DNA of 64,000 nt from Pyrenula massariospora (lineage: Eukaryota; Ascomycota; Eurotiomycetes; Pyrenulales; Pyrenulaceae): positions 2,709,230-2,773,229 of the forward strand of contig JAGFMI010000001.1 in the NCBI GenBank assembly GCA_021030905.1, written 5' to 3'. This document shows, one piece after another, positions 3,236 to 61,249 of the stretch. Numbering within the stretch: position 1 is the stretch's first letter; every line of letters starts with the position of its first letter. The notes under the pieces are model-generated. The model searched no databases, was not told the DNA's origin, and worked only from the letters and a program-made list of their open reading frames with translations. The translations under genes and the position numbers were made by a program.

Positions 3236-4961
3236 CCCCTGGAGCCGCTTCAGATACGCGTCCGGTGATAAACCTTGGACCGCTAAAACTTCAGTTTCTT
3301 TTACTGACAGTGAGGTAGCACGTTTACACCTCATCTCAGTCATCTACAATATCCAAACCCAACGGGGACTTATTTGTCAATTCTAAACAACCAAGGATGC
3401 AGCCATCAACCCAGCCCTACGTGACTCCACCCCATCAAGCATTAAACGAGCGGAAAATCAATCTTTAAATCGACCATCCACAAACATCTACACTTCCCCG
3501 ACTCTCCCATTCTAATCGTATCCTCATCCGTGTATCAGGCCCCCAGATATCACCACGACAACTTCTCGCGTTCAAGCCCTAACAAGAGATCTCCAACACT
3601 GCAACAAAGTCGAATACCTATAGCTCTAGCCAAAGCTATGAGAGACAAGCCATTCAGCTCTTCTCCTGTCAAAACAAGCCATCGTCCTCCTCACCGCCCC
3701 CGTCATTCCCAACAAACCGACCTCATCCGTTAGCTAATACCAGTAGCCACAATCTTCGCGGAATAAAGGAGAGGCATTCGAATCGAACCCGCCTCTACCG
3801 AAGCCCAACATACCTATTTCACTCAAACCCTCTCCCGTCCAGGAACACCCAAGTAGGCACAAACCCATCGCCTCAACCCGCAAGCCCGAGTCCCACCACA
3901 CACATATATAACCCCCACCACCCCTCAAAATCCAAACGTCAACCCTCATGCCGTCCCGCCGGCAGCTGATCAAAAAACCTCATCCCCATCCTTTCCGAGT
4001 CAGATCTCCCGCTCCCACTAACCACCCCGCTTCTCAATCCACCCTCCTCCCCTCATGCGTCGCAACCAAACCCCACTATCTAGCCTCTTCACCCGCTGGA
4101 CTTAACTTCAACGCCCAATCATAATCACGCTCTCCACTTCACTTCGCAGCAGGAACCCACACACTCCACACACTACGCTCGGCTGGCAGTTGTTCTGCGT
4201 ATCCGCTAGATCTACGGCTTTGGTCCAAGGGCTGGTGACTGGATGTTGTGGCTGGTATGGGTGGCATGGAAGGGTTGGTGTGTGTTTCGTCAGCGTGGGG
4301 GATCTGGGATGGGGAGGAAAGAAAGGTGGGTCAGGCGGGATGCAGGAGGATTGGGTGCGGACTAGGACGCGATGCGAGGCGAGGGGATGATTGCTTTGCT
4401 GTATTGTGGTGTTGCGCATTCTTATTGGGAACGGGGGGAAAGCGGTCGGAAAGATTGTTCGGGGAGGATATGGGAGTGTTCGGGGAGGATATGGGAGGGT
4501 TCGGGGGGGGTCGGTGGTGCGACGGCTACTGTGATGTTGGGCAAGTATTTATATTGAAAACGGGGAGAAGGGGATTTGGGGAGTAGTCATGCTGTCAAGG
4601 AAGGGAGATGATGGAGTAGTGCTGGCATATCAAGACCTCAAGTTGACGATATCAATGCACAAGAGTAGCGCATGAACCGGGGGAAGTACATTCAGCGTTC
4701 ATCGGTGAAATGGGTATTCATTTCATTATCTGTGCGAATGTGGGCTCGCCCCATCCTGCAGAAGTAATATACAAACAAATGGTTCTTTCCAGCTATCTAG
4801 CTAGCTAGTTTCCCCACTCTCTAGCAAAACGCCAGCCCAACCTTCACCCTCTGAGGGGAAGGAAGTGCATCCCACCATCTATAAATCCGACAGGTCTGTT
4901 TTTGATCTGGTTGGTGAACCAAGATCTATATGTACCTCCACCATTCTCACCAATCCAAACT
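3236..4961. other. gene-free stretch with sharp C-rich to G-rich flip
   Basis: From about 3400 to 4180 the plus strand is strongly C-rich and G-poor. From about 4190 to 4600 it becomes G-rich and C-poor within a few tens of bases. Several open frames on both strands are by-products of this composition (long proline/threonine or glycine/arginine runs) and show no motif. Around 4791-4810 there is a short CTAG-type repeat. I see no supported gene. Confidence 0.6.
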
Positions 4962-5462
4962 CTACAAAAGCGCCGCAGCGCCCAAAACCACACCACCAAG
5001 AACCCCGCCCATAACCAGCTGCGGCGCCGCCGTAACAGCCGGCGCAGCTCCCGGACTCGACGAGCTCGTCGCGCTGCCCGCCGCAGCGGTGCTCAAGTGG
5101 CTCGCCAGACTGCTCGCCAAGCTGCTGCCCAGCGAGGCGCCGTTCGAGCCCGCCGCGGTGATGCTGGAGACGAGGGACGAGGGGTTGATGCCGAGGGAGG
5201 AGAGGGCGGAGGATCCTTCGCTGGCGATGGAGGAGAGGTCGGAGGTGACGGAGGGGGCGATGGAGGTTAGGTCGGAGGCGAGGGAGGATGCGTCTGGGAC
5301 GGAGGTTTGTTAGAGAGGTTGATTGCGGATTTGAGAGGGGGATTTGGGGGGCTTACCAGAGGCGAGAGAGGAGGCGAAGCCGCCGGCGTCGGTGGTTGAG
5401 TCGGGTGCTGCGAGGGAGGGAGCGGCGAGGGCGAGGGCGATGAGGAGGGATTTGAATTGCAT
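4962..5462 (-). CDS. small secreted Ser/Ala-rich protein, probably GPI-anchored
   Basis: This two-exon minus-strand gene is too interrupted to appear as one open frame. Exon 1 is 5462-5357 and exon 2 is 5293-4962, with a 63-nt intron (GTAAG donor, CCCAG acceptor) and phase 1 preserved, giving 145 aa. Residues 1-19 form a clear signal peptide (MQFKSLLIALALAAPSLAA). The middle is Ser/Ala/Leu/Gly-rich with repeated SSL, LAS and SIAS steps and a single His. The C-terminus is a hydrophobic tail (LVMGGVLGGVVLGAAALL) after a small-residue stretch, as expected for a GPI-attachment signal. Fungal cell-wall proteins of this size and composition are common but poorly characterised. The first half uses mostly C-ending codons and the second half mostly G-ending codons, matching a local composition flip near 5150. 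Function unknown. Confidence 0.8.
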
Positions 5463-8385
5463 TTTGGCGGGGTTTGTGGTGGTTGGATTTGTGGGTTTCG
5501 AGGTGGATTGTGTGTGAAGAGGGTTGAGGTGTTGCGGTGCGTAAGATTGATGTGTTGAGTGAAAAAATTTCGAGATTCGGCGAGATTAGATCTTGATCTT
5601 TATTGACTTGCCGACGTCACACAGAGAAGCCACAGCCCAGTGGGATGATGTGGCAGGGACAAAGAGAGTACGTTGGTGGAAGGTACGTAGGAAGTAAGAC
5701 TGAGGCAAGAGTGAAAGAAATGAATGGCGATGTCTCCCCCTTTTCAACCCCATCTCTCGACCCCATAATTTGAGACTCAAAAAAGATGACAGTTCCACTC
5801 GCCAAGCCGCGAAGCCTCGAAGGAATCGTAAAAGGCTCGCATCGTCTGACGAACCACATGGCCGCAGAAGGGAAAGCCTTGCGACCCCCTTATTTCCCGA
5901 CACGGTAAAGGTGCTGATGCAGGACTGGGGGCGAAGCTCTGAAACGAGGAACTAGGCTGACCGTGGCGGTGAGTGATGTCACAGGGGAAGTCAGATGAAA
6001 TAAGTTTTTCCGGACCGAACGCAACTTTTTTTAGATGCACACGATCTCATTGATTGCCACTTGTGGCGGTGATGGAGACGCGTGTGGCGCGGCTATGCAC
6101 CCACGAGTTCTAGATACGGGGATCTTCACGAGGACATGTTCACGATAGGCTCACGCTGCTGCCACGTACGTACGCTTATTGCGACGACATGATGCACGCG
6201 CCTGCCGGGAAGGCCGAGCGCGACCGAGCGAAGGTGCAAAGTCGCGAGATGCACACAAACGCCGACCTGCCTTGTTCGTCTTGTCTGACAGTCAGATTAA
6301 GCTTGATCAACATTGCGCTTGCAGCTGGGCATTGCTTGATTGACGATCTCCATGCAGATGGTCACGAATCGACCAGGAAACTCGCTGTATAAGATGCTTA
6401 TCTTTGTGCCAATGTCGATGGGTTATTGCGCCATCCATCATCTCAACATAAAACCCCGCGATGATTGATATCGGAGGGATGGAGAATTTCTGATTGGCAC
6501 CGAAAACTCTCAACATTAACACAAAGATAAGCAATACGTCAAGAGCGTGAGGAAAACAAGCAACAAGTCTCCGATTGCTTCACGGATTTGTTCGGCAGCC
6601 GGATGGATAACGATAATGTTGCATACTGACGAAATATGGTGAGCGATAGGCGGTGAACTTCTAGGTGCCTGCGATGAGTGACACAGTCAACGACCTGGAA
6701 CTGCAAAGCAGTCTCCGACAAAATGGCCGAAAGAAAGAGCAAGCAATAAACCTGAGAGAAATTGAGGAAGTAAGTCATATCATTATTCTCCCTAGAATCC
6801 TTACTTCTTCATACACTTTTCAACCCGATTTCTTATCGTTTGTTCAACATCCCGCACTTCCTCACGTTTCTCCACGTCTTTTCTGCCACCGCAATTGCCG
6901 CAAAGCTTGAACCGATAACTCATTTCTATCAATTTGAATTCCTGTACTAGCCCCCAATGGCGCTATCCACGCGATCGCGCCTTAGCCATCAATTCCGATC
7001 CGATCACCCCGTTAGCGCAGCCGCGCCTTCGAAGTGGATTAACGCGCCTGATGCGGGCTAGTGACCGAGCTGACAATGACGCTGGCCGCAGTGCAAACGG
7101 CACCCGCACCCGTAGTGACTTCCGCGGCGCTGAAGTCTGGATATACCTCACTGCTCGTGAGCTGCTGATGCTACTCCTGACACTGTCCTTAGCAGCGCCG
7201 GGAGTAATTCTCGCCTCACTTGGCTCGCGAGAGACGACACTAGTTATCGACCTGGATGCTCTTGGGAGAGTTAGTCGTGCCGGGTGCGCATGCCGAGACG
7301 TAGGAGCTAGCGAAGGAGGTGCCGTAAGACTCTCAGGAGACGTAAGAATCCCAGCCTGGCAAGTGCGTCAGTGAGGTTCCGTACATGTAGAGGTGTCGAC
7401 AGTGGATCAAGAATTGGAGCAGTGGAGGAGGTAAGGTGCGTACGTTGAGGGTTGAGCGTCAGGATCGGCAAGGGCTGTGGCTGCAATGGTAAAGAGAATG
7501 TGAACAGAGTAACGTATGGGAGGCTTTGTTTTCGCGTTGACGGAGAGCGTGCCTAACAATCGTGGCCATTATTTGTGTCAAACCCTTGTTTTCGTATTAT
7601 TGTGTATTAATCTCGAGAGAAATTAGCCATAGATTCTTGCTACTGCGCTTGTGCTCGTATGTGTTGATTTTGCATCGCTAGATGACCGCAGAAATGACTT
7701 CATTCTTGCTCGCTCTGCGGCTCAATGGCTTAAAGCAGGCTGCGGTGACGTCCTTCGCCGCAAGTGTGCCCATGTGTAGGAATAGTTGTATGTTAAATGA
7801 TCAGCAGCAACTTTCTTGAAAGGTTACATTGGTGTAGCTCGATGTGTCGCTACAAGAACGCTCCGTGGCCAAGTGTGCCTTCCATGATTTGATAATACTT
7901 CCATAATCCAACCTGGTCACTGATTGGGGTAGTCTCGTGCATGCTTGGTCGATGTGTAGTGTGAGAGGATGCTTCTCATCAGGCACAGTATTTTTGATCG
8001 ACTGTATATCTTAATGGGCAAGCGACAGAGCTGGTGATAGAGGTCCAAGCAGAGTCAGCAAAAAAATGTAATTAGGCGGTCTGGCTAAATTCTGGCGAGA
8101 ATCAATGTTAGCCCATTTCCGAAATAAATAGATGTAGCTGTCAAGGTATGTCCTGGTTTCGGAACTTTCATTGAGAAGCCCTTTTGTCGCTGATGTCTCG
8201 CATTTGCTCATGTCCTCTTATTGGCTCAGTGCACCTCCGACATCTCTAACACCGTCGTCATCACATTGAGTGCTCCCGCTGTACACCTATATCATTTTGT
8301 CCTTTCTTAAAATCCTTTACTTGTCCTCATGCATATCATTAACAAGTATCAATTGATCTGACGGTTGAACTTCGTCATGCAAGTC
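5463..8385. other. gene-poor stretch; one small inverted-repeat element
   Basis: I find no gene here that I can support. An open frame at 6934-7374 (plus) contains an internal hydrophobic stretch, MLLLTLSLAAPGVILASLG, but has no homology I recognise and its opposite strand is also partly open. An inverted-repeat element lies at 6394-6534 and is listed separately. Confidence 0.5.
6394..6534. repeat. MITE-like element with terminal inverted repeats
   Basis: GCTTATCTTTGTG at 6396-6408 is repeated in inverse orientation as CACAAAGATAAGC at 6520-6532. The similarity continues inwards, with AATGTCGA on one side and AATGTTGA on the other. The interval is about 140 bp, without coding content. This fits a miniature inverted-repeat element or its relic. 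No target-site duplication is obvious. Confidence 0.4.
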
Positions 8386-10977: not shown

Positions 10978-11143
10978 TGTAATCATGACTGAAATGTCTG
11001 ATGACCGGTATTTCTATCTATTCTGTCCGGTTCTTTCCGTACAGTGGAGTGCATGTAGCTCAAGTCTCCATCTCGGCAACCCCAATTCGCTCAGAGCTTT
11101 CAACGTTAAATGCCATAGCACAAAGTCATTGTCCCTCCCTTTC

Positions 11144-13468
11144 TCACTCATACTTCTTCCCCACCGCTACTCTCCGCCTCTCTTCCTGATTCTCCGCCAG
11201 AACAACCAACCCCACCCTCTTACCTCCATCCACCTCTCTCACTCCCACCCGCTCCCCCCACGTCCTCCCCTTCTTCACCCCCGCACTCACGTTCCTCCCC
11301 AAAACCCCTTCCCTCTCCGGCGTCGGCGACCCCAACGCCAGGACCAGCATCTCCGCCTCCCCGCGCCACGCGCCCGGAACACTCCTCTTCGTCAGCGACA
11401 CCACCACCCACGCCGCGGTCAGCAGCGCATGCAAACCCAGCACCGCGATAGCAATTTGGACTGTGACGGCCGAGCGGGAGAACCAGCCGTACCCAAAGCG
11501 CTGGACACGGAAGCTGATCTGCATCCAATCCCCTTCGGTGAAGCGGGACGCGAGAGCCTGCGCGAAGTTGCCGTCATCGATGTAGGAGGTGTTTCTGAGA
11601 CAGGTTTTTGCGTCGTTGAATTCGACTATCCCGCATGGATCCCAATTGAGGACGTAGAAGAGGGCGGTTGTGATGGAGCGGGGGGAGTAACGGGCCAGAG
11701 CCTCGGCGACGAGGGAGGCGATGATGAGGGATAGGCCGGCTGAGTACGGGTCCGCTACGTCGAGGAGGGTGGGAAGACTAGTTTGGTTAAGTTCGAGGTC
11801 GGAGTAAACGGACATGGAATTGTTATGGTCGATGGTGGTCAGCATGAACCATTCGACGTAGGAGAAGTTGTAGGGGACGTTGATACTGATGAATTCGGTC
11901 ATGTTTGTTAAGGGGTCTTCGGTCGCAGTCTCCCCAATCCCGTGACTTCCTGCAGTCGCATTGATGGTTGATGTGATAAGATTTGCCCAGTCTGCGCGAA
12001 GGTTGACCGGCTGGCCATCGTCCACAGTCGACGTTGTTGCTTTAACGAAGTCTTTGGGGTTTGGGTGGTCTTGGTATATTGAATACAGGTCGCTTGAATC
12101 AATCCAAATTCTGACAGGAACCCAATGAGCGTCGATCGGGCAGACGATGACGCTTCGACAGTCTGGTATGCAAGTACCATTCATGTAGTATTGTAGGGAA
12201 GACTTTTTAATATCAAAGGTGAAGACACCTCCTAGACCTTGTGAAGACGGTGTCGCCTCGAATTCTATCCATCGAAAATGAGGAATTGTCCAATTAGTTT
12301 TGGAGAAATCAAAGGCCTTTAGCATAGCAATCTCCGCGCTATGACCGCCGAACTGCCGTAGATGATCAATCTGCGAGGCGAGATATCTTGAACATTTTGT
12401 ATGTACTAATGGCTTGTACAATGTCTCTTTTCCATTGAGTAAAATCTCCAGCTTCTGCTTCTGATCGGGATCTTCAACGGTCTGGGCGTTCCTGACATCG
12501 CTTAACAGAAATGGCCCGCTATTGATTTTTGAGCCTCTATTGTCCCAGTAATCCCGAAGCTCACTAGCTAATTCGTTTGTCAAGGAGGACGCAAAAGTCA
12601 CACTGGAACCTGCGTCCTGAGACACATCTAAATCTCTTGGAGCGCTCGAATTGGAATCCCGAACCGAAATGTTAAAGAGTCCTCCCTTTAGTGTAATGTG
12701 TGGATCGCTGAACCATTCAGAGACTGGAGACAAGGCAGAGGCTGGGCAAGCAGTGTAATTGATCGCATCAGTTCGTGAACATTCTGGTTGAACTAAGGCT
12801 TTCGACATCTCGCTTGGCCAGTAACCCGATGTTGAAATATTTTTGATCATTGGCATCAGGGCTGCAGGTCTTGGACGGGTCCAATCTGGTCGAGGGACAA
12901 TTAGAATGGCGGAAAGAGGGCCCGACAACAGTGCAAATGAAGCAGCCGTGATGAGCATTAATCCTGTCATTATCTTTCCAAGCTGTCCACGTCCAGATTC
13001 TCGTCGTACCAGAGGAGCCCAGAGCTCTTTGCTAGTCAGGTAGCTGAATGATTGAATCTGCTGAGCGCCGAGTAAATGGCCGACGCTGACCCCAAAGCTT
13101 GAGACCAGACTTTCGCGGATTTGAGAAGAAACGATGGTGGTAAGCGACATGACGAGGATAGCCTCATGAATCCTTGCAACAAACTGGAATGCACCTAGCT
13201 TCGCAGTCATATTCTGAGTCGCTTGGTCAACCCAAAAGACATTTGCCGCATTAAGGCCAATGACGGCCACAGTTGAGGTAACGGCCAGGACATGAATGGC
13301 ATTTCGAAGGATTAAACGGCGATTGCTCTGCACCGCGACCTTCGGTTGTTCGTCTTCAGAATTCCATGCCAGAGGTGTAGATGCATCATCGGGATGCGTT
13401 GCCAAGTCCTCGCTTGGTTCGTTTCTTTTGAGACTACTAAGTAACGTAGCTTCGGAGGCACTACTCAT
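11144..13468 (-). CDS. large multi-pass membrane protein with glycosylated loop
   Basis: This single long minus-strand exon encodes 774 aa from the ATG at 13468; the frame is open up to 13546 but without an upstream ATG. A short GTAAGC...CGCAG intron just upstream may lie in the leader. Hydrophobic segments are visible near residues 55-80, 98-115 and 166-192 and again near the C-terminus (VQIAIAVLGLHALLTAAWVV). Between them is a loop of about 480 residues with more than ten N-glycosylation sequons (for example NMT, NYT, NWT, NGT, NFS) and several cysteines, which argues for an extracellular domain. A basic tail of about 90 residues follows. The layout is that of a widespread uncharacterised fungal membrane-protein family, and I cannot name a function. 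The last 300 bases of the coding strand are G-rich, part of a composition flip near 11440. Confidence 0.8.
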   Translation of the reverse strand: MSSASEATLLSSLKRNEPSEDLATHPDDASTPLAWNSEDEQPKVAVQSNRRLILRNAIHVLAVTSTVAVIGLNAANVFWVDQATQNMTAKLGAFQFVARIHEAILVMSLTTIVSSQIRESLVSSFGVSVGHLLGAQQIQSFSYLTSKELWAPLVRRESGRGQLGKIMTGLMLITAASFALLSGPLSAILIVPRPDWTRPRPAALMPMIKNISTSGYWPSEMSKALVQPECSRTDAINYTACPASALSPVSEWFSDPHITLKGGLFNISVRDSNSSAPRDLDVSQDAGSSVTFASSLTNELASELRDYWDNRGSKINSGPFLLSDVRNAQTVEDPDQKQKLEILLNGKETLYKPLVHTKCSRYLASQIDHLRQFGGHSAEIAMLKAFDFSKTNWTIPHFRWIEFEATPSSQGLGGVFTFDIKKSSLQYYMNGTCIPDCRSVIVCPIDAHWVPVRIWIDSSDLYSIYQDHPNPKDFVKATTSTVDDGQPVNLRADWANLITSTINATAGSHGIGETATEDPLTNMTEFISINVPYNFSYVEWFMLTTIDHNNSMSVYSDLELNQTSLPTLLDVADPYSAGLSLIIASLVAEALARYSPRSITTALFYVLNWDPCGIVEFNDAKTCLRNTSYIDDGNFAQALASRFTEGDWMQISFRVQRFGYGWFSRSAVTVQIAIAVLGLHALLTAAWVVVSLTKRSVPGAWRGEAEMLVLALGSPTPEREGVLGRNVSAGVKKGRTWGERVGVREVDGGKRVGLVVLAENQEERRRVAVGKKYE

Positions 13469-14318
13469 TAGAATCAGCCCTGCGAAGTGTTGAAGTAAGT
13501 CGAGCTTACCGTTTTGCAGGCGATGGGCGCTGTTTCCCCCATCCAAGGAAATTGAAGCTCATTTCCGCCACATGTCCACATGTAAGAAACGGCAGTAACA
13601 GATCGCTCAACGACCATAACAGCAACGGCGCAACTAGAAGAAGCTACTCGCACGAGATATTGGGCAAGTAAGGTCTGCATATTCTACGGCGTAGAGCCGC
13701 AAGGCTGCCTTTTCCCCCCTCATGATTGCTAAGCGCTGGCCGATGGGCCGCAGGGGCTAAAGTACGTGCAATCGTGCCGGCGGCGAGGGAGGAGACTGTG
13801 TATCGCAGTGCTCAGCCAGTCGCAGTGACTTTCTGGCTGTGCCGCAAGGTGACCCATGGCCACACGGCATTTAGGCTCTCTCGAAATCATCGAAAATGGA
13901 AGGCGCGAAAAGATGCGTTGGGGACTGGCCAAAGAGGTGAAAGGATGAGCACAAAGATTTCTGCACAGCGGCTGTGCCGCACATGGATAGGGCACGAAGG
14001 AGGGATGTTTTGGGATCGAAGTTTCAGTTTTGGCCCCCGGAGCAGGGAAAGAGAAAGATTGCGGGAGGGCCGGGTGGAATGTCGGTCCCCGTAGTCCCTC
14101 GCGCATGCAGCCTTATCACGGCTGGCTACTACTAACTCTCTGCCCTATTAAGCTGATGTGGATGCAATAAGGTCACGACACGCCACAACGGCCACTTGGC
14201 CTTACCCAGTCACTCAACCAAGAACCATTCGTAGCATCCAATATCAGCGGTTCACCACTATTTCAACAACATCCCCACCCCCAGCCATCCTCTCCAGCAC
14301 ATAGGTAACAAGCCGCGA
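13469..14318. other. intergenic, no supported gene
   Basis: Frames of about 125 codons are open on both strands over 13726-14106, but each is the mirror of the other and neither shows a motif. The left part probably contains the leader and promoter of the membrane-protein gene that is read leftwards from 13468. The 12-mer GGCTGTGCCGCA occurs twice, near 13833 and 13970. Confidence 0.5.
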
Positions 14319-15579: not shown

Positions 15580-16384
15580 TCAATAACTTTCGTCCAGGGA
15601 GTAGTGTATTTCCACCACCTTCTTTCCCTCCATCCTCTCCTCCTCGTATGCTTGCTCGAAAAGCTCCCATTGGTTGCTGAACTGGAATCTAAACCCACGC
15701 CACTGAGACAGAGAAATCTGAGACTGAGAAAGCTGAGACGTAAGCTTTTCATGTGCGATTTCACACGCCCTCTCCAAGACACGATGGCATTGATAGCAGG
15801 AGTTACCGTCGATGTCGAGATCTTCAATCCATACCGGTCCAAACTCTTCATTGTATTCTCCACGATAAGCGTAGTTGGTAAATTTCCGTGAAAGCTGACA
15901 CAGAAAGAGACCATTTGACTTTCCCTCTTCAGTCCAATCCATTTCCAGCAGTTGAAGCAATGGCCATACGTCGTTAGAGTCCAGTCGATCGTCCTTGAGA
16001 GGATTCTCAACGTGTATGTTCATCGCGACACGAGCTAGGAATTTGCAAGTCAGGGCAAGACACGTTTGAGAGTCATTATCGACCACAGCAAAGATTTCAT
16101 GAAGCAGTTCATTCGGAAGAGACGCTAAGCATGGCTTTGGTAACTTGGTGATCTACGGATTCGTACAGAAGTTAGCGATTCATTTGTTAGTTTTTTCGAA
16201 CACAGAGGCGCAAATGTTCCTACAGGCTTCATGCTGCTAAGGATCTATTTCCAAGTTAGCTAGTCCGCATAAAATGGAAGCTATTAAAGATGCGTACGCT
16301 CTCAGAGATTTTGAGGTCGTGGTCAGACTTTGTATCATCGCCAGATGCCGATGAGGACACATCCGAGGTCGACGGTGTAGGCAT
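15580..16384 (-). CDS. small F-box protein, family copy B
   Basis: ATG at 16384. Exon 1 is 16384-16298 (29 codons), a 21-nt microexon is 16244-16224 (ILSSMKP), and exon 3 is 16152-15580. All junctions are phase 0 and the product is 226 aa. If the microexon is skipped, the protein is 219 aa and still in frame. The F-box is textbook: LASLPNELLHEIF followed by SQTCLALTCKFLARVA. Then come FLCQLSRKF and a CYQC pair, with an acidic/aromatic C-terminus. The N-terminal leader is Ser/Asp-rich and probably disordered. It lies in tandem with copy A, same strand, about 0.6 kb apart. Likely an SCF substrate adaptor; substrate unknown. Confidence 0.8.
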
Positions 16385-17966: not shown

Positions 17967-19091
17967 ATGGGTTCTATACAAAGTCCCGAACCAACCCAAA
18001 AAGTTGTCAGCACGACCCTAAACTATCATTTTCCACTCGACCGCGACACCCTCTATACAATAGGTACTATCGATAGCTACCGTCGCAAGTTTCAGAGGCG
18101 ACCTACCAAAATCTCCGACATAAGAGGCAGGGAGGGGGATTTTACTCTTGAAAAGCAAGGCTTCCAGTTATGTCAGCTTAAACATAAGAATGCAGATCTC
18201 TTCTCCGACGACGAGAAGATCAAACAAGACTTCTATCCCGAGGTAGAAGCCCTCTTGAAAAAAGTGTAAGTCTGATAACCTCACCTTCCTTCACCCGACT
18301 CTTCTGAACCTGTTCGCTGAACCCCTCCCTTGTCCAGCACCGGAGCCACCCACACCCTCGTCATGACGCACCTCCTCCGCCGCGACAACCCGGAAGCCCT
18401 CCACCGCCTCCTCGCCGACCCCTCCCTCCCGGGCTCCACCCAAACCCACAAAGTAATCCCCGCCCGCTTCGCCCACGTCGACGTCTCCGCCGCCACCGCC
18501 CACGCCACCTTCCACCGCACCCTCCCCCCCTCCTCCTCCCCCCCGCGCCTCCTCAATTCCCGCTGGGCAATAATCAACGTCTGGCACCCCCTCGCGCCCA
18601 TCAAAAAGGACCCCCTCGCCCTCTGCGACGCCCGCACCGCCGCCGACGCCGACCTCGTCCCCATCACGTCGATGCTGCCCCCCAAAGACAGCACGGCCAG
18701 CGGGCTCGGGCAGGGCGCGCGGGGCACGCTGATCGAGGTGCTGGAGCTGCGGTACAACGCCAAGCAGACGTGGTGGTATGCGGCGGACATGACGCCGGAG
18801 GAGGGGATGCTGATCAAGATCTACGATACGCGGGAGGACGGGGGGGTGGCGAGGCGGACGCCGCACTCGGCGTTTGTGGATCCCGACGCCCAGGGGGACG
18901 CGACGAGGGAGAGTGTGGAGTTTCGGTGCTTGGTTGTTTGGGAGGATCAGCCGGCTAAGTGGTGGCTCGGGAGGATGAGCAGCCGGCTTGGTGGAGGTAT
19001 TGTAGGGTGTTTGCGCGGATGGGTTTGCAGCGTTGGTCGGGGTGTGGGGCGGTGTTATTCCTACTTACGGCGGGCGGTGTTGTGGGCGTAG
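17967..19091 (+). CDS. CmcJ/NvfI/AsaB-like non-haem iron oxygenase
   Basis: ATG at 17967, exon 1 17967-18265, 72-nt intron (GTAAGT, branch CTGAAC, CCAG), exon 2 18338-19091, 350 aa. The product matches the fungal family related to CmcJ methoxylation subunits and AsaB hydroxylases/desaturases. Visible signatures are RPTKISDIRGREGDF (45-59), a FAHVDVS stretch giving a H146-x-D148 pair, RWAIINVWHPLAPI (175-188), LALCDA, and TPHSAFVDPD with H276, followed by RESVEFR. H146/D148/H276 would be the expected iron ligands, by family knowledge. Substrates in known members are small molecules, often secondary metabolites. No synthase gene is nearby. Exon 2 is extremely GC-rich, with C-ending codons to about 18690 and G-ending codons after it. 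The last 45-50 residues (Gly/Arg/Trp-rich) extend beyond the family's usual end and may reflect a frameshift. Confidence 0.8.
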
Positions 19092-19871
19092 CTTTCCGGG
19101 TTCGGCGGATTAGCTGCAGTGTGCGGCGGTTGAGCAATCGTGTTGATGTCGATTCAGTAAGGGCGTTAACGTAGGTGTAGAAGACACGATGCTATGGAAA
19201 CTTGGTTCTCCTTTCCTTGAGGTCGAGCACATCATTTCACCGTGATGACCGAGCCTAAAGACTGTAATTATCAGCATGAGAGATGATCAGCACTAGTCCA
19301 ACGGGTTTCAAATACGTTCGCTGAAGTGATGCCAGCGCTCTTTATTGACGACCATCCACTCACTTGAGAAGGCGAGATTTGATGCCAAGCATTATATTCC
19401 CCCTGCCGAGATACTACACTTCTTATACGTTTACCTGCATACACTCATTATACTATAATAGCAGCAGCAACGTACTTCTTCGTTAAATAGCCGCTGCTCC
19501 GAGCTAGCCAAAACCTTTCACAGAATGCCTAGTTCAATCAATTCCCTCCAGAACCTCACCCCTCGCACTCACACACTCGCTCCAAAGTCATAAATCCCTG
19601 TGTTTGAAAACCTTGACTGGTGTTTGGCCCTCCGTAAAATCCGACAATGCTTCAAAGAAGCCAAGTCGTATTCTCTGCCCACGCACGCTAATAGACCATT
19701 CCTTTCCCACACCAAGCACGATCAATCTCCCCATCCCACCCCACATCTCCATCCCACCAGCCACAAATCCCTTCTTCTCAGCTCAAATCAGCTCTCACAC
19801 CACTCCCATGCCTTCCCTCTCATACTTCACTAGCATCCACCATCACAGAAGCCCATCGCGCAACCAATCCA
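19092..19871. other. intergenic, no supported gene
   Basis: No coding signal apart from short C-rich frames near 19600-19900. It separates two convergent genes and should contain both 3' ends. Confidence 0.5.
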
Positions 19872-21963
19872 TCACCCAACCGGCAACGCCGCCGGACTAG
19901 CCGCCCACCCCGACTGCGGCAGCGTCACGTTATCCCAATACTCCTGCTGCATCATCTGCGTGACGTCCCCGGAGTCGGTCGGCGGTGGTGTATCATACAT
20001 CGCGACGACGTCCGCTCCGGTATCGATGCCTGGGTCGATGCTAAGATCGACTTCATCGCCACCGTCCCCTATATCCACATCGTCCGGAGCAGCGACGTCG
20101 GTACAGAGGAGTGAATCTCCTCCCCCTCCGCTGTAGATGCCAGAATCTTCTTCACCGCCACCATAACCACCATCCCATATACCGGGATCGTCCGGAGCAG
20201 CGACGTCCCCGCCACCATAACCACCATCCCATATACCGGGATCGTCCGGAGCAGCGACGTCCCCGCCACTGAGTAAGTCTCCTCCTCCCATGTCCGACAA
20301 ATCAACATCGCAGATCCCGCTGGGGTCGATGTCAGAGCCGGTGACGGCTGAGGCGATACTGTTAATGGCGACGCGCGTGGCGAATTTGGTGAGGCTGTTT
20401 CTCTGTGTCAGGGCGTAGGCTTTTTTGAGGCCGGTGGAGACGGATCGGCGTTTTGTGTTGGGTTCTGGGGGTGTGGGAGGGGTTGGTGTTGAGACGAGTC
20501 TTTGTGGGGCGCGGCTGAGACGGGGGACTGGAGGGTGCTGGGGGTTTGGAGGTGGACGGGGGAAGTGGCTGGAGGGATTAGGTTGGGAGAGATATTGAGG
20601 GGAGGGGATGCCTTGGTGAGGGTTTGCGGGAGGTGCCGTGGTCTGGGGGAGGGGGAGGTTTGGGTCTGAGAATGATCGCTCAGGAGCTACTTGCGATGAG
20701 GCGTGGAGGGGATGTTGTGTATTTCCGAAAGCTGCGTATGCGGGCTGCACGCTGGCATAGGCCGGAGGTGGTGATTGCGGGACAGGTCGCCTTCGTATGG
20801 GTAAAGCAGATTGTCCTTGAGATGGACCGCTTGGTATAGTTAGCGACTTCCTCACGCTAGCATCTCTATGCACATGAAGTTTGCTCGCGTGTTGCAAGCA
20901 ATGAGTGCACAGAGTGAGCACTTCGCTGCACTGTCGACAGTTCATGGTGGACGGCATTTGTACCTCTGTATAATTGTTAGCACTTTGTCCTCCATGGTCC
21001 TAGAGAACATACGGTGTAAGCACATTGTGCATTGGCTAACGCCATAATTCTGCAAATCATCGACTCGCCGTGGCTTTAGCTGACAATGTCGGTATGATCT
21101 GGCAACTGCTTGATTGAGATGCTCCTCGGAATACACGTCGGCGTAATTGGTATGTGGATGCGATTGTAACTCTTGGGAGGATCGTAATGCTGGCATGGAC
21201 GTTAGATGCTGGGGAGATTAAGCGGCGACAATACGTACACTGTCCACAGTCCTTGCAATGGATTCCTGGAGCTTTACCACCGGGCTGTGAAATCTCGAAC
21301 GTCCACTTGCACATCTCATGGTGTTTGTTGTGTCTGTCACCGCTATTATAGCACCTTTGGCAGTGATATATCGCATCACCGGCCATTAAATAGCAAGCCT
21401 TGCAGAAGTAAGCCTGTTGGCCCACCGGCAGAGCTAAGCATTGTCAGCGAGGTACCACACTATGAACAGTAGCTACAAGTACTTACAATTTGAGCAAGAA
21501 CTGCAATGATTGACTCCTGCAGTGCTGCAACACGATCCAATCATACCGGGTGGATGCCGCAGCTGATGCGGCGGCTCGAAAGCTCTGAACGTTCTGTGAT
21601 TGTGAAGATTGATGCTCTGATCATACCAACAGGCTCGGCAAAGTGAATAAACGCATTCGAGGCACGAGAATCTGGATCGAACTCTTTTGTTGCATTTGGC
21701 GCACTGTTGCTGCTCTGCGACAGATGCCACGTCTTGTTGGTAGCCGTGCATTGTGACAAGAGCTGGCTGGTGAGTCGGCTGATGGGCAGTGCTGCATTGC
21801 GTACAGTAAGGTAGTCGACAGTACGTGCACTCAATGAAAGGATAGGTGCTTTGGAGTCCTGTTCTATCAGCCTTACGGTTGCCAGTCCTCTCAGATTCTC
21901 CCCACCTTTAGAGCATAAGGCACAAAGTCTTGAAAAAGATTCTGTGCTAATACACTGCGACAT
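19872..21963 (-). CDS. cysteine-rich ZZ-like zinc-finger protein, 5 exons
   Basis: Assembled on the minus strand: exons 21963-21906, 21858-21487, 21433-21239, 21189-21013 and 20965-19872, introns 47-53 nt, all phase 1, 631 aa. The last three introns have good donors (GTAAGT, GTACGT, GTATGT); the first (GTGGGG) is weak. The N-terminal 250 residues contain tandem Cys/His clusters typical of ZZ or B-box-like fingers: ECTYCRLPYCTQCSTAH, CAKCNKRVRSRFSCLEC, FCKACYLMAGDAIYHCQRC with a trailing HNKHHEMC, and then HCKDCGQC. A further MNCRQCSEVLTLCTHC opens exon 5. The C-terminal half is a long Pro/Ser-rich, probably disordered region ending in an acidic Gly/Asp-rich repeat region. Such proteins usually act as scaffolds or ubiquitin-related adaptors; the exact role is unknown. 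An exact 54-bp tandem duplication lies in exon 5. Confidence 0.8.
20155..20262 (-). repeat. exact tandem duplication, 2 x 54 bp, in coding exon
   Basis: Bases 20155-20208 and 20209-20262 are identical copies encoding an 18-residue unit containing DVAAPDDPGIWDGGY. A diverged third copy follows towards the C-terminus (DVAAPDDVDIGDGG). The absence of any substitution indicates a very recent duplication or ongoing length variation. Confidence 0.9.
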
Positions 21964-22003
21964 CTTCAAAACTTGAGATGTCCTTGTTGGTACAGATGCC
22001 TGA

Positions 22004-23163: not shown

Positions 23164-24073
23164 ATGAACCCAGCGTTCGAGAAATCCTCAGAAGGTATGT
23201 CTCTATCTTGTCGCATTCTTTCAATGTGTCCAAGTTGACTAGCATCTCAGGGGCTGGTCAACAAGCCGTTTCTCCAGGGCAGGTATACTTCCTCTGAGTT
23301 ACACTCATACGACTGACTATGCTACAGCGAACTCTATACATCTCCCCCCACGAGTCCCCCTCCAGCATTCTCACCCCAATATGGACACTCGCCAGCCCAG
23401 TCTCCACCTCAAATGACATACGCGAACCAGCAGAACGTCTCGCCCCAGCAATCCCCGCCGGCAGGCTACTTCTCACAGCAGCAGCAGCAAAAGCAACCAC
23501 AACAACAGATGCATCAACCGCCGCCGCAGCAATATCGCAACGCTACTCCCATTCCCATCCTTGGCATGTCACCTGCTCCCGTCGACTGCCCGCGCTGTGG
23601 TCAACGTGCCATAACCAACGTCAGTTATCACGCGGGTAATACAACACAGTAAGCCCCGTTCTAATCCAGCCCGTCTTACCCTTGAATACACGATTTCCGT
23701 TTTCCGCTGCGATATCTCATCTCCAACAACGTCTCAATCCTCATGGTGTGCTTTGGTCATAGTGGTTTTAATTTTTAGCGATCTCCATTCTCTTTCTGTC
23801 TAGAATATCCTGTCGAACACCAAAACCACAGAGGCCCCCTAAAATTAAACCCCTATGACCATAGTACCCACCAGCAAGCACTCAACCCAATACTAACGTC
23901 TCTCTCTCACCAGCGCCTGGGCCGCAGGTCTCTGCTGCTTCACCGGCCTGTTCTGTTTCGTCCCCTACCTTATGAACAGCCTGAAAGACGTGCAGCACCG
24001 GTGTAGCCGGTGTGGGACATTGCTGGCGACGTGGCACAAGAGCGGGGCTGTCGAGGTTCATGCGCACGCGTAG
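23164..24073 (+). CDS. LITAF-domain membrane-associated protein
   Basis: Four exons (23164-23194, 23243-23282, 23328-23648, 23914-24073) join in phase to give 183 aa. The last intron is 265 nt, long for this locus, with a perfect TACTAAC branch point. The N-terminal 105 residues are Pro/Gln/Ser-rich with a polyglutamine patch (about residues 74-84). The C-terminal LITAF domain is complete: CPRCG (111-115), a hydrophobic membrane-inserting stretch LCCFTGLFCFVPYLM (137-151), LKDVQH, CSRCG (161-165) and TWHKSG. C111/C114 and C161/C164 should bind one zinc ion. LITAF proteins are monotopic proteins of late endosomal/lysosomal membranes that act in protein sorting. The fungal members are little studied. 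Confidence 0.9.
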
Positions 24074-34729: not shown

Positions 34730-34765
34730 CGGTCCTTGCTTTTGGGAATTAAGTTGCGTGGAATG

Positions 34766-51010: not shown

Positions 51011-53339
51011 ATGTCGAATATGGCAGGGCTTGTGGCTTCAGATAATATGCACGAGTATGGCTTCGCGGATGGAGAATTTCAATTAACGGCGGGGTCTCGA
51101 GCTAGAGGTCCACGACAGCAGCGAGCTTGTGAGACATGCCGTCACCTCAAAGTAAAGTGCATCTTCGACGATAGCCATCCAGATGGGCCTTGTATCAAAT
51201 GTGCTAAGCTCCGACAACCATGTACCATCCGTCCATATTACAGAAAGAAGCGCGCCAAGAAGGCGGACACGAGAGTAGCTGATCTTGAAAAGAAAATGGA
51301 AGCTCTGGTCGCGTCCTTGGAGGCGCAAAGGAAAGGCCCTCCGCCGCTCACGGAGCCGGGGAATCCCTTGCATGGCAAATTGGCGACTAAAGAAACTCCA
51401 ACTTCATCTCATGAGACAGCAGCTCCCTCACTCTCGGCCGATCACTCAGAACACTCTACCAACTCCATATCAGCGGACGACCCAGGTACTCCACCGACCG
51501 AGTACGAGTTGGAGTCGGTAAAGAAGAAAAGCTTTGTTCACTATACCTTGCCGGACTTCTCTGACTATGTAGATGTCATTGACCGACAGTTGCTTAGCTT
51601 AGAATTGGCCTACGAGATGTTTGATCAATATGTCGACAGGTCCCAATATCTTCCCCTCGTTGTGTTCCCACCAGGCACAAAGGCAGAGCATATTAGACGA
51701 CAGAAACCTCTCCTATTCCTCAGCATCCTTGCTGTGTCTAACAACGCGACAATTAAATTGTCTAAGACCTTGGGAAGGGAGCTCAACAAACTCATTGCCA
51801 TGCAATCCATCGTGGAAGGGAAAGCTAGTCTCGAGCTCCTTCAAGCGATTCTCATCAATATCGGCTATATTCCCCCTCCCGGTTTAAGGGAAGGGAAGAA
51901 CTACACATATCTTGTCGGCCTCGCTACCGCAATGGCCGAGGATCTCGAACTTGGGAAGAGGACTGAATCTGCGTACATCTTTCAAGACGCAAAGAGGCAT
52001 TTTGACGATATTTGCGAGTTGCCACCCCCAAAGGCTAGCGAAATCGAGCTACGGCGGACATGGCTGGCGGTGTACTACGTCTCATCAACAACTTCTACTC
52101 TTTCACGGCGGTCACTGGGACTTCGATGGAATCTCCATACAGATGATTGCGTCAAATTCCTGGAAAACTGTCCTGAAGCTCTACCGTCGGATAGATTTTT
52201 CTGCTATCTTCTTCGTTGCCAGCGCATTGTTGAAGATGCACAGTTTCAGCTCGGTCTTGACGGAATACAGGACCTAGCTTCCTTTTCAGATGCCAAGACT
52301 TCATATCAGTTGCGGGGGTTCGATACTCGGATTGCTGAATGGCACTCTGACTCATCATCCTTCCCACAAAAAGGTAAACCCCTTATTGGGCATGCAGAAC
52401 GTCCTCCTAATTCAAGCTCTAGATGTTGCCGATCTACTCCGAGCCGTTACTGGTATATACGTTCACGATATCTCACTCAATCAAAGTGAGGGTGGGGCAA
52501 GTTGGAAATGCCCAATGGCGAGAGCGCTGGATGATCCTGGAGAACCGCAACCAATTTCCTCAACACACTCGTGGTCCATACTCTCCTGTCTTCAATACGC
52601 TCATCAAGCATTTGAATGTATATTCGCCTTGCCGATGGAAACGCTAAAGGCTCTTCCCACCCTTATACAGGTTCGAATGTTTTTCGCCGGCATCGTTCTA
52701 GTCCGATTTGAGACCCTACTCGACACAGCGAAAGATCTGCCTCTTACTCTAGACGACCTCAAAGTCACATACTACTTGTCCCGATTCCAGGTAAGCCCAA
52801 GCATCCCAATGAAAGAATGTCTCGCGCTGCGAATGCTGATCCCACCACCATACAGCTCCTCCTCAAAGAAGCCTGCTCTTCCGACGGCGGCCGCACCCTC
52901 AACCTCACCTACCTAATCGTCACCCGAATCAACCAATGGCACCACGTAGTTTCAAAATACCGAGCCGGCGGCTCCAAATCCGATGTCCCCCTCTGCTCAG
53001 ATGTAATCCCTCCCCCTTCCATACTATACCAAACTCACCACTAACAACCTCCCCTCCCAGCCCACCACCAACGACTCTGCTCTCCCCGAAAACTTCTGCC
53101 CCGTCACCAACCCCGCCGCCGCCGCAAACAGCACCACCACCTCCACCCAATACACCAACGCCGACGGCCTCGCCGCGCCGATGCTGCCCGAGACCCCGCC
53201 CCCGACCTTCGACCTGGACATGATGGATTTCGGCATCGACCCGGCGAACCCGGCCGGCGGGTTTGACTGGATGATGGAGGGCATGGGGATGGGGATGGGG
53301 TGGATGACGAGCGGGTTTAATTTTAACACAGCGCCTTAA
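51011..53339 (+). CDS. Zn2Cys6 fungal transcription factor
   Basis: Exons 51011-52373, 52417-52790, 52856-53002 and 53061-53339, introns 43-65 nt, phases consistent, 720 aa. The binuclear zinc cluster is near the N-terminus: C40, C43, C50, C61, C64 and C71 (CETCRHLKVKC and CIKCAKLRQPC), spacing C2C6C10C2C6C. A basic linker (RKKRAKKADTR) and a short coiled coil (ADLEKKMEALVASLEAQ) for dimerisation follow. The middle region has helices of a fungal regulatory domain (ELGKRTESAY, ELPPPKASEIELRRTWLAVY). The C-terminal exon is Thr/Pro/Met-rich with DLDMMDFGIDP and repeated GMGM, a plausible activation domain. It lies 0.8 kb downstream of the rhodopsin-like gene and could control the neighbouring tyrosinase or MFS gene. 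The 43-nt first intron is the least certain junction. Confidence 0.9.
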
Positions 53340-54978
53340 TACGGTCTAGGGTGGGTTTTTTGCTAAAGCTGGGCTTATTGGGATGCATTGTATAGCATTG
53401 CGCTGGATGGCGTTCTGTGGGTCGGCGGCGTGACCCCACCTACCTTATGTAGGTAGGTAGGTAGGTAGGTGGACGGGCCATGCCATTCATGCAGGGTTGT
53501 CTGCCAACGCGGATGCAAACGGGCTTGAATGTCATTATAGGCTGTTAAGGCGGGTTTTGGCATCATTTTTGGCGGAGGACCGCTTTCTGCTTGCTATCGA
53601 GATTCTCTCCTCTTCTCCTCTGGATGCATAGCATTATCTAAATACCAGATATTGTTCTATTATTTCTCCTCGTTTGCGTCTGAGCTGCGACCCCCCCGAA
53701 CGTCACGCCATGCTAGTCTCCCTCAAACTCACCGTCACGACTCAACACGAAGCGTGACTTCGTCCCCAAGCCGCGCGATCATGTCTTGGCATGATGTTCC
53801 ACTCTTGGCAATCGCGTGCAAGTCAGCACACCACAGCACACACATGTGCAGACCTACCCAAAGCATGACTTTTCAAATAGCGTCCTGCCAACATGATTTG
53901 TTCACTCTTTCTTCTTTTTCCGTTCATCACTCAACCTTACCTCACACCATCCTTCCATCCACCTACCGCCTTCCTACAGCGCAACCTGACCAAGAAGAAA
54001 GTTCCCACGCTATTCGGACATCCCCGCCGTGGCCAATCCTCTTATCCTTTTCGCTCACCTCTGAAAAAAAAAAATTCACGACATACCAAAACCCGCCTGC
54101 TCGCCCGGCTCAACGATGCTCACTATCCCCTTCCTCCCACCGCCCCACCACCCCCCAAGCAGCCCTCACACTCCCCCTCCCCGCTACGAATTGCCCCACT
54201 CCACACCCCAACAGCCCCTTGCGATGTCCCCACTCCCTACCATAATCCCTTTACAGGCCCCTCTACTCTCCATCCCACACCCCAGCACCTCAACGACGGC
54301 CGTCCTCATATCCGGTCCGGTGGGATTGCAAAAGCCGCCCCGCTCTTCGTTCCGGCGTTAGTGGGAGAGAGAGAGGTGGGGATGGTGAAGGAGTGTGAGG
54401 GTGAGAGGAAGATGAGATTGAGGAGCGGGTTGTGGGTTGCGTGTGGGCGGTGTAGTGGGAGAAGTAGGAGGGCAAACGGAGGAGAGCGGGGAGGAGATGG
54501 TGCAGGCGGGGAGAATGGGGTGGAAGATGGAGCGAGGGGGGTTGTGAAATTTCGTTGGAGGAGGGTTGAGGACGGTGTTCGGCAGGCCAGGGGCAAGGTG
54601 GTTCTGGGGAGGCAGGAAGATGGAGTTAGGGAGATGAAGATTTAGGTTGGTGGTGGGTTCCGCGATGGGGGTTGGATGTAGGGTGAGGGAGAGTTTCCTA
54701 TGTGGTTTGGACCGGCAGTGCTGCTGGAGGAGGGAGAGGTCGTGCCAATGGTGTGCCAGGCCAAGTTAGCCGTATAATAGGAGAAGCTCGCTACGAAGAT
54801 GATCGGTGAGAGGGTGATCGAGACTACGGAGGGATATCGATGGATGGACAGATGGATCATACCGTCTCTTTTCAAGAGAGGAGCTTCGATTCTTCGAGGT
54901 TCATTGTTATGCTCTTCCTGTCCTGACTATCTCTTATTTCGATTCCTCATCGTGTTGCCCTTACCTCGCCATGCGAGT
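53340..54978. other. intergenic with GTAG repeat and composition flip
   Basis: A GTAG microsatellite occupies about 53449-53471. From about 53680 to 54300 the plus strand is C-rich and from 54310 to 54740 G-rich. The open frames here (for example 53893-54645 on plus) are Pro/Thr/Ser-rich then Gly/Arg-rich and follow the composition. No supported gene. Confidence 0.55.
53449..53471. repeat. GTAG microsatellite
   Basis: About five head-to-tail GTAG units following TATGTAG. The unit is related to the ACCTAGGTA repeat at 15110-15134. Confidence 0.8.
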
Positions 54979-59348: not shown

Positions 59349-59868
59349 GGAAGGGAGATGAGCTGGAGTGAGATTCTCTGTGCTAACTACGTCACATAAT
59401 ACTACCAGATTTTCAGTTTTGCTTTGTTTCCCTTTCTCTTAGCGCGTACGGCGTACTAATCCTTAATTCTGTTGGATCCGATTGGTGGTTCTATTTCAGT
59501 GTCTCGAAAAAGCGCATCTCCACTCTTTGGGTAGGATCAGATTGGATTCGTCTACCCTAGTCATTTAGATCGTTCTCTAGATTATATTGCTATTAGAACG
59601 TGTGTTGCCGCTCCTTAGGTACAAGTTAATTAGTTGGTTAGTTCGTCCCCCGGCATGATGATTATGCCGGATAGAAAATTGCACACGTTCTTCGAAATCG
59701 TTGCTGTAAAATACAAATCGATCCTCTTACTCGCTGGACAGATAGGCTCGTCGTTATCTCCCCATAATATCTCATTTTCCCAGACATTGCTCCATCTTCC
59801 TCCCCCAAGATCCCACAACACGCCGCGGTATCCGTCCTCGCCCATCCTCACAAACCCACCCCCTCAAC
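59349..59868. other. convergent 3' spacer
   Basis: AT-rich 3' flanks of two convergent genes, followed from about 59770 by C-rich sequence continuing into the next gene's 3' end. No gene seen. Confidence 0.5.
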
Positions 59869-61249
59869 TTAAAGCCGTCCAACCCCCAAAACAACACCCC
59901 CCTCCCCCTCCCCCTCCCCCTCCCCACTCACCTCCTGAACAAGCACAACTCTCCTCCGCTCCCTCCCCCCCTCTTCACTACCTGGCACCTCAAACTCCCC
60001 CACCCCACCCCTCCACACCCCCACCTCCCTCGTCCCCCTCACAACATTAACATACACAACCCTCCTACCCCCCAACTCGCCCCCCCGAATCGCAACCTCA
60101 AGCCTCCTCTCATCGTACTCGATCAGCGAGACGAGGCCGGAGAGTTTGCGGGGGCCTTCGATTCGAACGGCCTGGCGGCCGGGGATAGGATCGACAGAGA
60201 CGGAGGTGGTGCGGGAGGCTTTGCGCCCGCGCTTGACGAGCGCCTTGAGTTGGGACTCGGTGGAGAGGGGGCTGAGGGAGCCGGCTGCGCCGTTGACGAT
60301 TAGGCAGGGGGTGCCGAGGCGCGGCCAGGCGAGGCGGCGCGCGTAGGACCACTGCCGGCGGTTGGCGGCGGGGAGGGAGAAGGTGTCGGTCCAGCCGCCT
60401 TCGGGGTCGCCGGCGGTGTTTAGGAGAGCGCCCTCGTTGTCCCTGGTTTTTTGGGTTGGGGGGTCAGTGGGCTGTTTTTGGGTATGTGAGGGGGGGAGGA
60501 AGGGAAGGGAGGAAAATGGGGGTTTGGGTTGAGGGTGGGGATTTTTTCTGTTTGGCTTACCAGTACGTAACATGCCAGCTCAAAAACAGCACGTTGGGGT
60601 CGTACGAGTGGCGCAGGAGGGAGAGGAGGTTGTTGTTCACGGGGACGCAGGCGGCGGAGGACTGGGACTGGAAGAGTTCGAGGACGGTCGGGCGCGAGGA
60701 GGTGCGGATGTGGATTGGGCACTGGCAGCCGGGGGGGTGGGGGTCGAAGCGGGTGTAGGATGGCGGGGGGAGGGCGTCTTCTGGTGGGAGGAGGTCGGTG
60801 AATGTTCGTGGTGCGGCTTGGGTTGGTGCGGGAGGTTCAGGCTCGGTCGTAGGGGGTTGTGGCGTGTTTGAGGAGGAGAATGCTGGAGGGGCGTCGGATG
60901 GTGTTGGGTTTGAGAGAGGGGGGCCGAAGGATGTGCTGGTCGCGGGGATGATTGCTGGGCCTATTGCGTCGAGGGCGGGTGGAGGTGGGACGGTGGGAAG
61001 TGGGTGTTCTGCGGTCGAGCGGGAGAAAGGGTTTAGATTGACTGCGACGGAAGGCTGAGGAGGTGAAGGGAGGTCTTCAGTGAACGGTGGAGGGGCTAGT
61101 AGAGGTGCCGTTGGCGGGTTTTGCGTGACAGGGAGGGTCTTGGCCGGGATGGCGTCTTCCTTTTCCTGGTCGTGGTCTTCATTGGAGGCATCTTTTGGCT
61201 GACAAAGGCTGAGAAGCTTGCGGAAGAGGGATCGGTGTTGATCGCTCAT
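59869..61249 (-). CDS. proline-rich protein with unrecognised globular core
   Basis: Exon 1 is 61249-60561 and exon 2 is 60442-59869, joined over a 118-nt intron (GTAAG donor, CCAG acceptor, phase 2), 420 aa, ATG at 61249. Residues 1-170 are Pro/Thr/Ser-rich and probably disordered. A globular core then begins with a short HPPGCQCPIH motif and continues across the splice site (FLSWHVTYW-DNEGALLNTAGD), with PIPGRQAVRIEGPRKLSGLV further on. The last 40 residues are Arg/Glu/Gly-rich, ending in a GEGEGEGEGG repeat made by a CCCCCT microsatellite at about 59898-59926. Codons are C-ending in the first part of exon 2 and G-ending after about 60120. I do not recognise the domain; function unknown. 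Confidence 0.7.
59898..59926. repeat. CCCCCT microsatellite inside coding sequence
   Basis: Four to five hexamer units, plus strand; on the coding minus strand it encodes alternating Gly-Glu near the C-terminus of the proline-rich protein, so its length may vary without frameshift. Confidence 0.85.

Follow-up and report, generated by a model that had tools for sequence, protein, structure and literature searches.

The 64,000-nucleotide stretch of Pyrenula massariospora DNA examined here (the window, C11:2709230-2773229 on contig C11) belongs to a genome of 37.8 Mb in 33 contigs with TTAGGG telomeres, and its gene families, HET, F-box, Zn2Cys6, fungal rhodopsin and tyrosinase among them, are those of a filamentous fungus. 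Within these genes, and in the DNA between them, are found points at which the plus strand passes from a C-rich, G-poor block to a G-rich, C-poor one, so that GC skew turns from negative to positive. Eleven such flips had been listed in an earlier note on this DNA, and at all of them the skew does rise from negative values left of the point to positive ones right of it, whether measured over 150, 300 or 500 bp, the weakest sides at 150 bp being the left of the point near 5150 (-0.16) and the right of that near 11440 (+0.08). In the mean profile of the listed points, skew goes from about -0.65 to about +0.5 while GC content climbs from a level near 0.50 to a central value of about 0.62; single skew blocks in the window are about 240 to 1240 bp long, and the transition takes nearer 150 bp than the tens of bases first described. 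The flips favour the 3' ends of genes and convergent intergenic DNA, and on average they resemble the trace that a DNA process working to both sides would leave, whatever the sequence encodes. The footprints of the window are collected in Table 1, where ORF stands for open reading frame.

Table 1. Skew footprints of the window, with the genes and family matches in which their flips lie
Footprint	Strand	Flip	Setting	Match or further detail
3326-4717	.	~4180	Non-coding; convergent gap, flanked by a plus HET-type gene and a minus gene	C-rich 3326-4180, G-rich to ~4700; about equal skew in all three phases
4717-5590	-	~5133	Small predicted gene 4962-5462, 171 bp upstream of stop	
11064-12100	-	~11440	Long ORF 11147-13558, <300 bp upstream of stop	No family match; right side weak, +0.08 to +0.26
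18274-19205	+	~18683	CmcJ/NvfI-family oxidoreductase gene	NCBIfam NF041278, E 1.9e-45, residues 3-204 of window:18330-19088:+; C-ending to G-ending codons within the domain
19300-20781	-	~20318	ORF 19875-20999, 443 bp upstream of its end	No family match; gene finder model differs (19588-20291, start 27 bp short of the flip)
23300-24300	+	~23981	LITAF-like zinc ribbon, last exon 23915-24073, ~90 bp upstream of stop	zf-LITAF-like, E 1.5e-12 in window:23915-24070:+; E 6.1e-5 in the preceding ORF
24300-25203	.	~24807	Non-coding; 425 bp past the stop of a minus F-box gene	
30965-31500	+	~31255-31292	Last exon of predicted gene 30603-31452, 160-200 bp before stop	
33800-35200	.	~34687	Non-coding; 961 bp past the stop of a minus gene	
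52750-53578	+	~53210	Zn2Cys6/Fungal_trans gene, last predicted exon, 129 bp upstream of stop	Zn_clus and Fungal_trans
53600-54843	.	~54348	Non-coding	Strongest in the window by step score; skew -0.57 to +0.80 (200-bp windows)
59757-61348	-	~60111	Inside a DUF1223 domain (match ~59935-60396)	PF06764, E 8.6e-19, residues 62-215 of window:59872-60579:-

Beyond the window, one 10-kb locus from each of 18 contigs and a contiguous 60 kb of C11 were sampled, giving a joint set of 294 kb, so that the results concern about 300 kb of one genome; locus L008 (AT-rich, GC 0.228) was left out of this set and of the ORF alignment described below, and L001, which lies inside the window, was left out throughout. 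With a flip defined by |skew| > 0.25 on both sides in 200-bp windows and a step score of 5, 33 C-to-G flips were found against 11 G-to-C flips (p 0.0006), and with a stricter |skew| > 0.4 the numbers were 18 and 3; at least one negative-to-positive flip is present in 11 of the 18 sampled loci. The flips are not a product of chance, since 20 shuffles of the 294 kb in 9-bp blocks produced no flip in either direction, and 20 gene-aware shuffles, in which codons were permuted inside exons and 9-mers inside gaps, left means of 2.05 C-to-G and 1.3 G-to-C flips, with maxima of 4 and 3. The claim that the reverse step is never sharp was overstated, as the 11 G-to-C flips pass the same criteria, two of them inside the window (14095 and 25203). 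Most of these are nevertheless outer edges of the same footprints, because 8 of the 11 have a C-to-G flip no farther than 500 bp away, where 1.2 would be expected at random.

The same imbalance is seen over the whole genome, where the pattern CCCCHCC followed after 270-300 positions by GGDGGGG has at least 879 matches and its reverse at least 143. Stricter patterns gave forward and reversed counts of at least 88 and 12 (270-300), 92 and 9 (450-480) and 7 and 1 (100-130), all of them lower bounds, with overlapping matches inflating both sides of the ratios. Patterns built from H and D only (no G, then no C) had been discarded in favour of these C- and G-run patterns, as AT-rich DNA dominates their matches. 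Counted both ways, sharp C-to-G steps are therefore in excess in the 294 kb as well as in the genome patterns, and 33 candidate points in 294 kb would correspond to some thousands genome-wide. Some of the C-to-G flips come as doublets 0.6-1.7 kb apart with a sharp G-to-C step between them, as if two footprints met (L002:5648-6268, and 16179-17877 in L020-L025 joined); doublets with softer G-to-C steps are found in the window at 4180/5133, 23981/24807 and 53210/54348.

The anatomy of the flips was obtained from 33 refined sites, after removal of L002:200, which lies within 260 bp of its locus end, and addition by hand of the 11440 flip, which fails the 0.25 cut on its right side. Twenty of these sites were assigned to genes and turned to the sense strand, three of them by hand (23981, 20318 and that of L010), and 13 are non-coding. 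Skew ranges from -0.50 to -0.64 at -250 to -100 bp and from +0.40 to +0.61 at +50 to +250 bp; a weaker central zone of about +/-75 bp (mean |skew| 0.23-0.40) is followed by values of 0.45-0.64 out to about 250 bp, and the skew decays by 350-500 bp. The footprint thus extends about 300-500 bp to each side of a centre of about 150 bp and is symmetric on average. GC content is 0.52-0.62 within 250 bp of the flip centres, against about 0.50 outside, and the profile is alike in the gene-assigned and the non-coding sites. This agrees with the earlier description of the flip as a strand-symmetric feature, of the kind that a bidirectional process starting from a point would leave.

The preference is one for single bases. 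Fourfold-degenerate sites before a flip consist of C 0.62, A 0.12, G 0.12 and T 0.13, and after it of G 0.55, A 0.14, C 0.14 and T 0.17, against A 0.24, C 0.29, G 0.22 and T 0.25 over all predicted genes, which by simple arithmetic amounts to an approximately fourfold preference on each side (log ratio about 1.4). Little sequence context is involved, because dinucleotide ratios stay within about 0.2 of those of the genome (the largest shift, in coding blocks, is that of AA, 1.29 against 1.08) and the lengths of C runs are geometric. No 6-, 7- or 8-mer in the flip centres exceeded the highest count of 60 shuffles. As for the other base pair, A exceeds T before and T exceeds A after the non-coding flips, weakly, and AT skew is positive before the stops of 89 long ORFs. 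Inverted repeats of at least 18 bp, sought in four flip regions, numbered 0, 0, 0 and 1 pair (21 bp, 86%) and so do not account for the flips in these four regions.

In the coding parts, the change from C-ending to G-ending codons reported earlier is readily seen. Codon use and gene orientation do not explain the flips, since these run through conserved domains of plus and minus genes, through introns and through non-coding DNA. On the plus strand, flips fall inside single matched domains of the CmcJ/NvfI (18683), LITAF-like (23981), aldehyde dehydrogenase (L011) and RRM (L005) families, and in the tyrosine phosphatase region of a plus gene of L021; on the minus strand, they fall inside DUF1223 (60111), a glutaminase A hairpin (L020) and a kinase match below the Pfam cut-off (L019). 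Other genes with flips, including 11147-13558, 19875-20999 and 30922-31449, gave no family match in the profile scans. Within 400 bp of the flips in 17 genes, skew before and after is -0.63 and +0.50 at third codon positions, -0.42 and +0.19 at second positions and -0.07 and +0.41 at first positions. In introns near flips, C reaches 0.40 on the side before and G 0.45 on the side after, the values for all 145 predicted introns being 0.24 and 0.23, and the non-coding flips at 4180, 24807, 34687 and 54348, which include the strongest of the window, have about the same skew in the three phases.

A C-to-G step could also be produced by the ordinary codon bias of convergent pairs, when a plus gene rich in C-ending codons meets a minus gene, and convergent gaps do hold flips. 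As a general cause, this explanation is refuted by the flips within single matched domains of both strands; moreover, the predicted genes taken together use the four bases almost evenly at fourfold sites and gene-aware shuffling keeps just 2.05 of the 33 flips, so that we regard it as highly improbable.

The position of the flips relative to genes was established with 148 models from our own small gene finder, 96 of them with a coding length of at least 450, which are approximate and were checked solely by their agreement with Pfam and NCBIfam matches. Fifteen flips lie in genes, 9 in the 25 convergent gaps, 6 in the 45 tandem gaps and none in the 18 divergent gaps, with 3 unclassed; the gene finder missed the LITAF-like gene, and flips 23981 and 24807 were consequently classed as tandem. 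Thirteen of the in-gene flips are 129-562 bp upstream of the stop (one of them, in a short gene, being closer to the ATG), and the other two at 994 and 1467 bp. The region from 600 bp upstream to 1 kb downstream of a stop holds 25 of the 33 flips, against 16.4 at random (p 0.0025), and that from 500 to 50 bp upstream of a predicted stop holds 12, against a random mean of 5.5 (p 0.002), whereas 5'-only zones hold 2, against a random mean of 7.4 (p 0.01). The split between 9 flips in the convergent gaps (33.3 kb) and 0 in the divergent gaps (21.6 kb) has p 0.011 by length. The pattern crosses plus genes, minus genes and non-coding DNA, as had been claimed, but it does not ignore gene content, being biased to gene 3' ends. 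R-loops at divergent promoters, another of the causes initially proposed, find no support in the empty divergent gaps, an absence that is weak on its own (2.4 flips expected, Poisson p 0.09).

The same tendency is present, in softer form, in genes at large. In the stop-aligned mean of the 89 long ORFs, some ends of which may be intron edges instead of stops and at least one of which (18294-19064, minus) is on the wrong strand of a matched gene, sense skew is -0.18 at -675 bp, reaches zero near -300 bp and rises to +0.17 in the last 75 bp; the G excess fades by 75-150 bp past the end, and the gene middles have almost no skew. Of 71 predicted genes, 61 shift toward G at the 3' end; the shift exceeds 0.3 in 22 of them, and in 3 genes a shift of that size goes the opposite way. 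Shifts above 0.3 occur at 14 of 33 convergent and 7 of 31 tandem 3' ends (Fisher p 0.11), a difference that carries no argument.

An average skew of this kind is known. McLean & Tirosh (2011, PMC3315797) described a 5'-C/3'-G gene skew in most of the fungi that they examined, their species list including Neurospora, Aspergillus, Chaetomium and Stagonospora, and the available text of the paper leaves its cause open between mutation and selection; the earlier view that no such system has been described in filamentous fungi was thus too strong. In both cases the coding strand has a C bias early in the gene and a G bias at its 3' end, which extends to fourfold sites and beyond the stop, and these traits are all found here, in the 89 ORFs, in the 61 of 71 genes, at fourfold sites and outside coding sequence. 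The skew described in that text is, however, an average gradient, with a significant trend in a fraction of the genes, whereas the flips are single-locus, high-amplitude and two-sided: the change takes about 150 bp at the flagged loci instead of being gradual, 13 of the 33 sites are non-coding, and the mean over all long ORFs is softer than the flagged loci. Further differences are the GC peak, the non-coding convergent sites and the weak sign change of AT skew at non-coding flips. The flip is probably the single-locus form of the averaged fungal skew; single-locus amplitude, the two-sided footprint, the GC peak, non-coding sites and the base preference were not found in the available portions of PMC3315797 and would be new with respect to it. 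Among the matches listed by one open-access library, as far as their accessible text goes, neither strand-asymmetric conversion with GC-skew flips nor single-locus flips appeared, and a gerbil paper on "GC skew" uses the term, in its available part, for GC content.

The averaged skew invites an explanation by transcription, in which mutation or repair would not be the same during elongation as during termination by the polymerase, or in which sense and antisense transcription would run into each other near the 3' end, leaving a transcript that is C-rich and then G-rich. The location of the flips at gene 3' ends, the run from -0.18 to +0.17 in the stop-aligned mean, the shift toward G in 61 of the 71 genes and the average pattern known in fungi (PMC3315797) all agree with it. 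It does not account for the symmetry of the flips around a central GC peak or for their equal strength in non-coding DNA whose distance to predicted stops ranges from several hundred to more than 1000 bp, and gene middles almost without skew also speak against it; furthermore, AT skew is flat along genes in the account of McLean & Tirosh, as far as the available text shows, and changes sign weakly at the non-coding flips here. Such a transcription-phase bias is in our opinion unlikely, while deserving serious consideration. Selection acting on RNA, through avoidance of C at transcript ends or an RNA-level signal, would also account for the 3'-end location and for a mean G excess that reaches about 75 bp beyond the stop, and is rendered improbable by the involvement of second codon positions and introns, by the lack of any motif or run-length signal and by the occurrence of some of the strongest flips in non-coding convergent DNA.

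The sign of the flips also recalls replication origins. Along either strand, a negative-to-positive change is what bacteria display, and a similar change, as a subtle average rise, has been reported within 400 bp across yeast Mcm sites (Foss et al. 2024, PMC10945306). In such a scheme, the footprint centres would be licensed Mcm sites placed at gene 3' ends by transcription, and the swap between leading and lagging synthesis at the centre would give its two sides skews of opposite sign. In yeast, the 500 strongest sites lie preferentially in convergent gaps (PMC10945306), in line with the 9 flips in 25 convergent gaps and 0 in 18 divergent gaps found here, and replication initiation indeed explains location and sign better than the conversion mechanism discussed below. 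The bacterial-origin likeness pointed out earlier holds for sign and, judged against the yeast Mcm average, for scale, but not for composition or for the 20 of 33 sites assigned to genes. Deamination of C to T on the lagging template predicts a gain of T and a lower GC content, whereas T is not raised and GC goes up; sites inside exons stay unexplained. According to the available text of PMC10945306, the abundant Mcm sites of yeast lie between genes or within genes of low transcription, lower-ranked sites prefer divergent gaps, and displacement by transcription is argued against; the yeast effect, seen within a few hundred bp in averages of 1,100-site groups, mostly intergenic, is explained there by deamination and described as subtle, while the mean skew swing is about 1 in the flips. 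Replication initiation is thus, in our judgement, a rather unlikely cause, on a par with transcription-phase bias.

The explanation that we favour over these two, tentatively and at less than even probability, is strand-asymmetric biased gene conversion at recurrent breaks. The symmetry of the footprint, its raised GC content, the scarcity of any context or motif signal and the passage through exons, introns and gaps alike argue for two-way spreading from the centre, with C favoured on the strand that runs toward it, and cytosine deamination does not fit, since it predicts a gain of T and a loss of GC. Resolved at single loci, the pattern likewise speaks against deamination and in favour of a preference, almost independent of context, for C or G according to side. 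According to the proposed mechanism, breaks, presumably meiotic, would recur in the footprint centre, and heteroduplex would form on the 3'-ended strand, which is the top strand on the left and the bottom strand on the right. Correction to the donor would work better on mismatches that include a G than on those that include a C, G.G being corrected while C.C escapes and G.T being handled better than A.C, so that C alleles on the 3'-ended strand would be over-transmitted on the left and top-strand G alleles on the right; ordinary GC-biased conversion, acting on top of this, would raise GC content. That there exists in this way a second kind of biased conversion, in which repair near gene 3' ends favours C on the 3'-ended heteroduplex strand and the two sides are driven to opposite bases, is possible but doubtful.

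Related phenomena are known from other organisms. GC-biased conversion at recombination hotspots likewise raises GC locally at the centre and affects coding sites too; as usually described, it treats the strands alike and lacks the opposite C and G preferences on the two sides that characterise the flips. Around human meiotic breaks, mutation types mirror across the break within about 2 kb, as the flips do, the differences being that rare-variant spectra are concerned, that the context is partly deaminase-like and that the central 100 bp are without asymmetry; no compositional flip is reported in the available text of that study (PMC7615360). In meiosis of S. pombe, C-C mismatches frequently escape canonical mismatch repair (PMC4154643), and in single-strand annealing in the mouse the type of mismatch mattered little (PMC9001825). 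The genome itself has one Spo11-type TP6A_N match (E 3.9e-10, positions 25-62 of 62) and six MutS_V matches, which permit meiosis and are no proof of it.

Several points weigh against biased conversion. Location is its main weakness: flips avoid 5' ends and often lie inside exons, unlike promoter-type break sites. In the yeasts studied, breaks occur mostly in the nucleosome-free regions of promoters. G falls below A in purine-ending twofold codons and in non-coding blocks, and therefore the drive is not simply one of everything to C, although a loss of G is predicted by the proposed repair rule. The selection of sites in 200-bp windows and their re-centring sharpen the centre of the profile and exaggerate its drop beyond 200-250 bp. 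A second, excision-based pathway of S. pombe does repair C-C mismatches, and its Drosophila counterpart repairs all mismatch types about equally (both in the available text of PMC4154643). Finally, in Zymoseptoria, a fungus for which fine recombination maps exist, GC-biased conversion is very weak or absent (PMC5844332).

If biased conversion is the correct reading, its strength would suffice to remodel codons and introns, and amino acids too, across several hundred bp at each of thousands of loci, and the sites of recombination initiation could be read from a single genome sequence; more generally, should the flips mark the starts of recombination or of replication, such sites would be readable from sequence alone. 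The flips are also a warning that the choice of codons and amino acids near gene ends can be due to processes at the DNA level instead of selection.

Some minor observations complete the description of the window and of the genome. Ten short tandem-repeat rows are present in the window, and tandem repeats, too, were rejected as the source of the flips. A perfect 54-bp tandem repeat (2.1 copies, 20155-20269) lies in the minus ORF 19875-20999, just left of its flip, and a run of AGGT units (53435-53475) stands beside the 3' end of the Zn2Cys6 gene, a complementary ACCT run being found at the C6:454657 pattern match. Two HET-domain (heterokaryon incompatibility) genes, at 1014-3235 and 26340-28839, one on each strand, have two F-box matches between them, 25232-26040 and, just below the Pfam cut-off, 15580-16384. 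Locus L008 (G000:C7:500001-510000) is a 10-kb AT-rich island, its GC content of 0.228 contrasting with about 50% for the genome, and may be one of those that repeat-induced mutation leaves behind or that occur at centromeres. TTAGGG arrays stand at contig ends, among the matches listed, in C1, C2, C5, C6, C8 and C11-C14, and C11, with 3.31 Mb and TTAGGG at both ends, looks like a complete chromosome.

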